From Candidatus Latescibacterota bacterium (GTDB lineage Bacteria; Latescibacterota; UBA2968; UBA8231): DNA of 17,073 bases. The translations under genes were made by a program, and so were the position numbers. The notes below the pieces were generated by a model. That model searched no databases, was not told where the DNA came from, and was given only the letters and a program-made list of their open reading frames with translations. The DNA lies in NCBI GenBank assembly GCA_021295675.1, contig JAGWBY010000109.1, positions 979 to 18,051 of the forward strand, in the 5' to 3' direction. Of the stretch, positions 5,229 through 16,049 are shown one piece after another. Each line of letters starts with the position of its first letter. The first letter of the stretch is position 1.

Positions 5229-5445
5229 ATGTCCGAACGTCAAAGTGGATCCGTCAAATGGTTCGATAGTTCCAAGGGGTTTGGTTGACGTCTTCGTCCA
5301 TTACAGCGCAATTCGCGGTGATGGTTTCCGCTCTCTAGAAGAAGGTCAGAAGGTGGAATTTGAAACGGCCGCTAGCCCCAAGGGCCTCCAAGCCCGAGAC
5401 GTGATCGTCATCGGCGCGGCCCCCGAAACCGAAACTCCGCAATAA
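5229..5445 (+). pseudogene. Cold-shock protein gene with internal frameshifting deletion
   Basis: From ATG 5229, behind a strong AGGGAGGT (5211-5218), the frame reads MSERQSGSVKWFDSSKGFG and meets TGA at 5286. The next frame then continues as VDVFVHYSAIRGDGFRSLEEGQKVEFE to a TAA at 5443. The two halves are the front and back of one CspA-type domain. The missing middle is the end of RNP1 (FI) plus the loop before DVFVH, normally about 8-9 residues. One base remains in its place, so about 23 or 26 nt are lost. The rest, including ribosome site and terminator, is intact. As written, no full RNA-binding beta-barrel can be made. It may be a true recent pseudogene or an assembly error. An intact product would be an RNA chaperone of about 79 aa. 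Confidence 0.85.
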
Positions 5446-5463
5446 TCCCTCCAGACAAACACG

Positions 5464-5498
5464 AAAAGCGCAGGGCCTTGAGGTTCTGCGCTTTTTTT
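5464..5498 (+). terminator. Rho-independent terminator after csp
   Basis: AAAAGCGCAG (5464-5473) pairs with CTGCGCTTTT (5486-5495) across a 12-nt loop, and the T run continues to 5498. It lies 18 nt past the csp stop. On the other strand, where the VOC gene ends at 5512, the same stem is followed by TTTTCG, so it may work weakly in both directions. Confidence 0.88.
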
Positions 5499-5511
5499 GT
5501 GCCAACCCAGC

Positions 5512-5934
5512 CTAGTGAGTCTGGAAAAACTCCACGACTTCGCCGTTGGGGCCTTTGAAAAAGGCAATCGTCACGTTCAGCCTGTCCAGCGTCAGATCCT
5601 TGGGTTCGACCGTGATCTCGCATCCAGCCTCTCGCACCCGCTCAGTGGCGGCGCGCGCGTCTGTAACCGCCAAGGCAAAATGCGTCACCGGATCGTTGGG
5701 ACTTTCGGCCCCAGGTGCGGGCGACTCGGCCGTAGGAGCGAAGAGTTCAAGGTGGCTTCCGTCGCCTGCATCCAAGAGCGCGATCTTGCGCTCAGGAGAG
5801 CCAAATTCGGCGACCACCTCCATCCCCAGCACATCTCGGTAAAAGCTCAGCGACGTTTCCCAATCGCGCGTCTGCACGGCTACGTGATGCATTCCACAAC
5901 CGGCGATTACAGCGTTTTTGTCACCTATAGGCAT
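5512..5934 (-). CDS. VOC-superfamily protein (glyoxalase I-like)
   Basis: The 140-residue protein has two beta-alpha-beta-beta-beta halves. The first opens GMHHVAVQTRDWETSLSFYRDVLG and the second begins near THFALAV. The four metal-ligand positions of glyoxalase-type proteins are filled: H17, E63 (HLELF), H85 and E135 (EVVEFFQ). This supports a metal-dependent lyase, isomerase or dioxygenase, but the substrate is not readable; methylglyoxal detoxification is one option. The ATG at 5934 has AGGAAG upstream and overlaps the 3' end of the ADP-ribosylglycohydrolase gene by 10 bp, so the two are probably translationally coupled. It is the last gene of the minus-strand run that starts with frdA. 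Confidence 0.87.
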   Translation of the reverse strand: MPIGDKNAVIAGCGMHHVAVQTRDWETSLSFYRDVLGMEVVAEFGSPERKIALLDAGDGSHLELFAPTAESPAPGAESPNDPVTHFALAVTDARAATERVREAGCEITVEPKDLTLDRLNVTIAFFKGPNGEVVEFFQTH

Positions 5935-14646: not shown

Positions 14647-14675
14647 TTGGGTAACATGGTAGGTTCGGATAAAAC
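14647..14675 (+). promoter_or_regulatory. Candidate promoter of the 3-hydroxyacyl-CoA dehydrogenase gene
   Basis: TTGGGT (14647-14652) and TAAAAC (14670-14675) are separated by 17 bp and end 18 bp before the ATG at 14694. It is divergent from the dehydratase promoter in the same 164-bp gap, leaving room for shared control. The boxes are imperfect. Confidence 0.37.
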
Positions 14676-14693
14676 CCACCTCTGAAAGACGAT

Positions 14694-15548
14694 ATGAATC
14701 TCAATCGCATTGCCGTCATCGGGGCTGGCACTATGGGGAGTGGCATTGCCCAAGTCTTGGCCCAAGCCAGCCGGGAAGTCCTGCTCTACGACGCAGATCC
14801 CTGCGCCCGCGAACAGGGATTGGCCAGCATCGCCGCACGCCTGCGCCAACAAGCCGCCAAAGGTCGATTAGAACCGGCCGCCAGCGAAGCGGCCATCGCC
14901 GCGCTGCGGGGTATCGACCAGCTCGCCGACATTGGCACCGCTGACATGATCGTCGAAGTTGTACCGGAACGCCTAGACCTCAAGCTCGCGGTATTCGCCC
15001 AACTTGGACAATTCGCCGGGCCAGAGGCCATCCTCGCCAGCAACACTTCTGGCTTAGATATCGACGCGCTCGCCGCCGAATCCGGTCGGCCCGACAAGGT
15101 AATTGGCATGCACTTCTTCAACCCGCCCCCGACCATGCCCCTAGTTGAAGTAGTGCGTGCAACCGCGACCGCGGACGAGACCTTGGCCGCGGTCATGGCC
15201 TTGGCCCAAGACCTAGACAAGACTCCCGTCGCGGTCGCCAACAGCCCTGGTTTTGCAGTCAACCGCATCCTCTTTCCCATGATTAATGAGGCCATCTACG
15301 CCCTCGCCGAAGGCGTGGCCAGCGCCGAAGACATCGACCGGGTGATGGTGTTGGGGGCGAGCCATCCCATCGGGCCGCTGGCTTTGGCCGACTACGTCGG
15401 ACTCGACGTGACCTTAGATATCCTCGAATCGTTTGCCCAGCGCCTAGACAGCGCCAAATACCGCCCCTGCCCCCTGCTGCGCGAGATGGTCGCGCAGGGC
15501 GCGTTGGGCCGCAAGACGGGTCGGGGGTTTTTCTCCTACCCGCGATAA
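14694..15548 (+). CDS. hbd: 3-hydroxyacyl-CoA (3-hydroxybutyryl-CoA) dehydrogenase
   Basis: The 284-residue protein is a complete single-domain-pair dehydrogenase. The NAD-binding GAGTMGSGIA is at 10-19, an adenine-side acidic D33 follows the second strand, E92 sits in VVPE, S116 in SNTS, and the catalytic H140 in GMHFFNPPP. NSPGFAVNRIL and LGASHPIGPLALADYVGLD mark the C-terminal dimer domain. It interconverts 3-hydroxyacyl-CoA and 3-oxoacyl-CoA with NAD(H), in short-chain fatty acid or butyrate-type metabolism. No thiolase or crotonase is adjacent, so direction is not evident. The ribosome site before ATG 14694 is weak (GAAAGACGAT). A lipoprotein gene follows after 10 bp, suggesting co-transcription. 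Confidence 0.92.
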   Translation: MNLNRIAVIGAGTMGSGIAQVLAQASREVLLYDADPCAREQGLASIAARLRQQAAKGRLEPAASEAAIAALRGIDQLADIGTADMIVEVVPERLDLKLAVFAQLGQFAGPEAILASNTSGLDIDALAAESGRPDKVIGMHFFNPPPTMPLVEVVRATATADETLAAVMALAQDLDKTPVAVANSPGFAVNRILFPMINEAIYALAEGVASAEDIDRVMVLGASHPIGPLALADYVGLDVTLDILESFAQRLDSAKYRPCPLLREMVAQGALGRKTGRGFFSYPR

Positions 15549-15558
15549 CGGGTCGCAG

Positions 15559-16049
15559 ATGCTGCGCTTCTTTATCCTCTTGTGCCTCCTAGCCACCTGT
15601 AGCTGCTCAATCCGCTCGGCACCGCGTTATACGGCCGACGACTCCAAGGATTCGGACAGCGACAGCGTGGTGCGCGAACTCAAAGAACGCCGCCGCGCCA
15701 GTCCCAACCGCCTCGCGCGCGTCGTCGAAGGGTATCTCGGCGTACCCTACAGGTGGGGCGGCACCACCCGCGCTGGCATGGACTGCAGACGTATGGCATC
15801 GAACTGCCCCGCACCACCAAGCAGATATACCGCGTCGGCCGCACCGTCAGCCGACGGCAAGACCTCAAACCAGGGGATCTGGTTTTCTTCAGGAATACCT
15901 CCTCAGGACCGGGCGTTTCCCACGTCGGGGTTTACCTCAGCAAAGGGAGCTTCGCCCACGTGGGTGTGAGCACCGGTGCCACCATCACCTCGCTCGACCA
16001 TCCCTATTTCCACCGCCGCTATGTCGGCGCTCGCCGCGTCGAGCGATAA
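15559..16049 (+). pseudogene. NlpC/P60 cell-wall endopeptidase lipoprotein, frameshifted at the active site
   Basis: Frame 1 starts MLRFFILLCLLATCSC, a lipoprotein signal with the lipobox cysteine at about residue 15. It continues VVEGYLGVPYRWGGTTRAGMDC (Cys at codon 76), then runs into unrelated sequence. The second frame picks up at 15786 as QTYGIELPRTTKQIYRVG, then LKPGDLVFF, SHVGVYL (catalytic His) and FAHVG, ending at TAA 16047. Family members such as E. coli MepS read DCSGFVQ..., so the missing piece is the SGFV block, about 25 or 28 nt, right after the nucleophile Cys. An intact product would cleave peptidoglycan stem peptides from the membrane. Both halves look well conserved, so the break is recent or an assembly error. 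It sits between hbd and a membrane glycosyltransferase. Confidence 0.85.

Follow-up and report, generated by a model that had tools for sequence, protein, structure and literature searches.

Short private losses in conserved genes of a Candidatus Latescibacterota contig are probably assembly artefacts of a strain mixture

Why are several genes of one Candidatus Latescibacterota contig (JAGWBY010000109.1) broken by short losses of similar size, when the rest of their sequence is undamaged? The window, the whole stretch of 17,073 nt that was analysed here, had been described in a first-pass annotation as carrying four such losses of about 25 nt in three genes, at about 5285 in csp, 9265 and 9945 in frdA and 15786 in nlpC. 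Three options had been offered: (a) a systematic assembly or consensus artefact, (b) a lineage with a deletion-prone repair process and (c) population variants collapsed into one contig.

Orthologous DNA was compared by MAFFT alignment and independently by blastn. A contig scan with the window's SdhB yielded 80 loci, and the seven closest (L001 to L007), labelled Latescibacterota, Latescibacteria or Gemmatimonadetes, served as relatives; L005 and L007 are chromosome-level by their records. All seven showed 90–93% DNA identity to the window, with gene order kept over most of the covered part. The comparable extent reached about 11.7 kb in L003, about 11.6 kb in L005 and about 10.3 kb in L006, and was limited to 5147–8964 in L001. 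No relative above 93.5% identity was found by contig comparison, and among 25 family genomes scanned, 19 of which matched, no new one exceeded 73% identity over a long stretch. The available part of the literature on sponge Latescibacterota would allow a sponge host to be guessed for the source organism.

The comparison identified the following junctions, at each of which the window lacks a block present in its relatives.

1026..1027, plus strand: in-frame loss of 87 nt in a PhyH-family gene (941–1693); all six covering relatives have the block.
5207..5208, no strand: non-coding loss of 5 nt upstream of csp; all seven relatives have these bases, and microhomology is 0 nt.
5286..5287, plus strand: frame-breaking loss of 23 nt in csp (5229–5445); all seven relatives have the block, and microhomology is 0 nt.
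8603..10262, minus strand: sdhA/frdA, in three pieces and three frames, with the next two junctions.
9264..9265, minus strand: frame-breaking loss of 25 nt in sdhA/frdA; all six covering relatives have the block, and microhomology is 1 nt.
9939..9940, minus strand: frame-breaking loss of 22 nt in sdhA/frdA; all six covering relatives have the block, and microhomology is 0–1 nt.
12676..12677, minus strand: in-frame loss of 21 nt in a galactonate-dehydratase-like gene (11674–12792); all three syntenic relatives have the block.
15786..15787, plus strand: frame-breaking loss of 28 nt in nlpC (15559–16049); all three syntenic relatives have the block, and microhomology is 0–1 nt.

All four junctions of the first-pass annotation were recovered by MAFFT and blastn, with the block in every aligned relative, and its estimated losses (23/26, 25, 22 and 25/28 nt) were measured by orthologue alignment as 23, 25, 22 and 28 nt. 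The position given there as 9945 lies at 9939. Its four losses in three genes stood as such and proved an undercount, there being six in five genes plus the 5-nt non-coding one; of the two genic losses it had overlooked, that of 21 nt at 12676 falls inside its size range, in a gene missing from its list of affected genes, and that of 87 nt at 1026 outside it. Its proposed check in close relatives found the missing blocks in all covering ones, so the losses are private to the window.

At all seven junctions, the block length was exactly as stated in every covering relative. The blastn sizes at 5286, 9264, 9939, 12676 and 15786 equalled those from MAFFT, with positions within one base, and at 1026 the blastn alignment ended and resumed about 87 nt further on. 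The comparison at 15786 rests on L002, L004 and L007, as L005 is non-syntenic there and L001, L003 and L006 stop short of it. Full-length sdhA measured 1,710 bases in four matches versus 1,663 in the window, the difference being 25 + 22; two other full-length matches had 1,712–1,713 bases owing to an additional 3-nt codon. The window has three further private indels: single nucleotides at 4308 and at 4614, in non-coding DNA or a doubtful ORF, and 3 inserted nt at 15636. The 5-nt loss after 5207 may likewise be an ordinary indel.

Protein homologues gave similar results. The 7 residues missing from the window's dehydratase were kept in all 120 best-listed homologues (of 7,996 with E ≤ 0.001; 8,000 scored). 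The 29 residues missing from its PhyH protein were complete in 119 of the 120 best-listed homologues (of 2,131, from 2,337 candidates), the other one having 24 of them. An sdhA break common to other proteins was rejected in a check of 2 of the best 120 listed: P0121 and P0122, the two best matches to the C-terminal piece, have their start upstream of 9264 and include the block, as do P0124 and P0125. A 40-nt pattern across 9939 had 0 matches in the viral contigs searched. Two database proteins looked broken at places other than the window's junctions. P0121, with 19 members, is an SdhA of only 248 aa whose longest contig has 21,834 bases, and P0098, with 31 members, is a dehydratase of 348 aa in which the C-terminus is altered.

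The six genic losses measure 21, 22, 23, 25, 28 and 87 nt. Two of the six lengths are divisible by three, which is the random share and is consistent with selection never having seen the losses. Within genes, most differences between the relatives and the window were multiples of three in length, and the frame-changing ones were of 1–4 nt and mostly close to gene ends (L003 at 3543 and 7000; L004 at 5145; L005 at 1685; L006 at 751, 1691 and 4399; L007 at 4399 and 15546). L004 also showed a 100-nt difference at the last nlpC codon, and in L002 the tail of rpsU has a private gap of 1 nt. No frame-breaking loss of 20–30 nt was found in any gene interior of L001 to L007.

Microhomology at all seven junctions was 0, 1 or 2 nt when the block ends were counted against each relative. 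Replication slippage between direct repeats was rejected on this ground, and a joining of contig ends by spurious overlap is unlikely for the same reason. Such ends would suit genuine deletions that arose very recently in a living lineage through repair with little need for homology, such as end joining, and so would the lack of any relative found above 93.5% identity. This origin is nevertheless very improbable in our estimate, as it would have to break one central metabolic gene twice in a lineage whose relatives are without such losses, leave sdhA with 0 nonsynonymous private changes and prefer conserved flanks.

Selection was assessed from private codon changes. sdhA, read as three pieces in their own frames (549 codons), carried 17 synonymous and 0 nonsynonymous private changes, so relaxed selection after a break was not seen in this gene. 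The corresponding synonymous/nonsynonymous counts were 6/1 in sdhB, 6/3 in PhyH and 20/1 in the dehydratase, with 2/1 in csp and 7/2 in nlpC being too few to judge alone. Internal stops were absent from the tested gene pieces, each in its own frame, and no surplus of substitutions was generally found beside the junctions, the exception being 5 private ones in the 50 nt to the right of 12676. Genuine pseudogene decay is not supported, given the lack of relaxed selection in sdhA, though a break too young to have left its mark would look the same. The pseudogenes of host-associated bacteria are alike in having frame-breaking losses in genes; the window differs in that selection on sdhA is not relaxed, the tested pieces are free of internal stops, and the losses are private and lie in conserved stretches. 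A lineage process making blunt 21–28 nt losses in conserved coding DNA, too recent for any other decay, is very improbable.

Private substitutions were densest elsewhere in the window, with 39 in 6501–7000 versus 3–20 per other 500-base bin. This bin lies within an ADP-ribosylglycohydrolase gene (Pfam PF03747; 5925–7061) that is present in the window and L001 to L004 and wholly or mostly absent at the same place in L005 to L007; the frame-changing difference of L003 at 7000, of 4 nt, is in this region. The C-terminal tail of a gene we take to be rpsU-like (about 5044–5146) is a run of short repeats whose copy number varies among relatives. Between genes or at their edges, L007 carries insertions at 778–876 of about 1.6 kb in total, and L002 one of 87 nt at about 12808. 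Upstream of sdhA (about 10266–10306), L003 (4294–4351) and L004 (8259–8274) carry insertions containing a sequence that presumably resembles a CRISPR repeat. Of 106 loci, four had its exact 16-nt pattern, namely L003, L004 and two that overlap, L081 and L083; in the window it was not found even when 3 mismatches were allowed.

Junction placement was measured as the exact match to each relative to the left and right of a junction, summed. The six genic junctions had a mean of 64 nt versus 27 nt at coding positions, a control that is inexact in that junction runs are separated by the block and control-position runs touch. The junction mean was reached by 0 of 200,000 random coding sets of six and by 42 of 200,000 sets matched by gene. 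Ranked inside their own genes, the six flanks fell at percentiles 0.63, 0.74, 0.81, 0.97, 0.93 and 0.95, the weakest being 1026 (0.63) and 5286 (0.74). The same measure for all seven junctions gave 0 of 20,000, with 5207 and 5286 lying in one conserved island and hence not independent. These flanks were measured against other species and not against the sample's own strains. Conservation percentiles of the lost blocks were mixed (0.73, 0.93, 0.95, 0.34, 0.48 and 0.06). The deletion-prone lineage of option (b) is not supported, since deletions that a lineage tolerates would be expected to spare the best-conserved parts of conserved genes and to come mostly in lengths divisible by three.

The losses being private, with 0–2 nt of microhomology, two of six in frame, intact selection on sdhA and conserved flanks, they are best read as an assembly artefact in a strain mixture, in which graph segments were dropped and their flanks abutted. 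We consider this reading likely, and an assembly artefact of one kind or another, the stripped gaps discussed below included, highly likely. Option (a) of the first-pass annotation and the part of option (c) that places related strains in the sample both fit this reading. The window would be a consensus contig from a metagenome with several related strains. Each of the six genic sites would hold a short stretch between strain-shared flanks, where the assembly graph branches, presumably because of co-resident strains; an assembler or scaffolder that drops the stretch and abuts the flanks would leave blunt losses of 21–87 nt, and the organism's own DNA would still hold the missing blocks. If the middle of a branch were dropped together with one k-1 overlap, the loss would amount to k bases and whatever further length the polymorphism spans. 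k = 21 is a common smallest k-mer and would suit the losses of 21, 22, 23, 25, 28 and 87 nt, whose shared floor of 21 nt may reflect one small k-mer length plus a polymorphism span.

Several findings count against the artefact reading. Relatives whose contigs have SPAdes- or MEGAHIT-like names are free of the fault, the 5-nt loss is below the 21-nt floor, and the flank lengths are uneven, not about k per side. A polymorphic middle would be expected of such branches, and the lost blocks were mixed in this respect, their conservation percentiles spreading from 0.06 to 0.95. The closest relative showed no clear change between segments across the junctions, and strain switching there was rejected. 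Local misassembly of mixed-strain metagenome contigs is similar in that it too leaves small, blunt and private losses whose flanks are shared, in a sequence that is clean elsewhere. The present case differs in that the relatives' contigs lack such losses and that the step yielding 21–28 nt is a putative one.

Two other origins would also leave clean sequence around the losses. In the main rival, the blocks had no read coverage and were written as N runs when the scaffold was first built, the Ns being removed later; this is also an artefact and would account for the blunt edges, the privacy, the absent decay and a window free of N letters. We regard such stripped gaps as unlikely, because coverage gaps should vary widely in length, yet five of the six losses are of 21–28 nt, and placement in conserved flanks needs an added cause, for instance branching or the filtering of reads at these places. 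Deletion variants carried by a minority of a mixed population and taken up by the consensus would likewise give clean edges and privacy. A single 17-kb consensus would then have to contain six such variants, all alike in size and all set in conserved flanks, which leaves this origin very little probability.

With the losses read as dropped graph segments, the six would be ordinary and useful as a warning, not a real biological feature of this organism. Gaps of this kind make false pseudogenes and false short variants of working genes in public contigs. Their signature, namely losses that are private and blunt, about one third in frame, with exactly shared flanks and no relaxed selection, could flag such gaps without reads.
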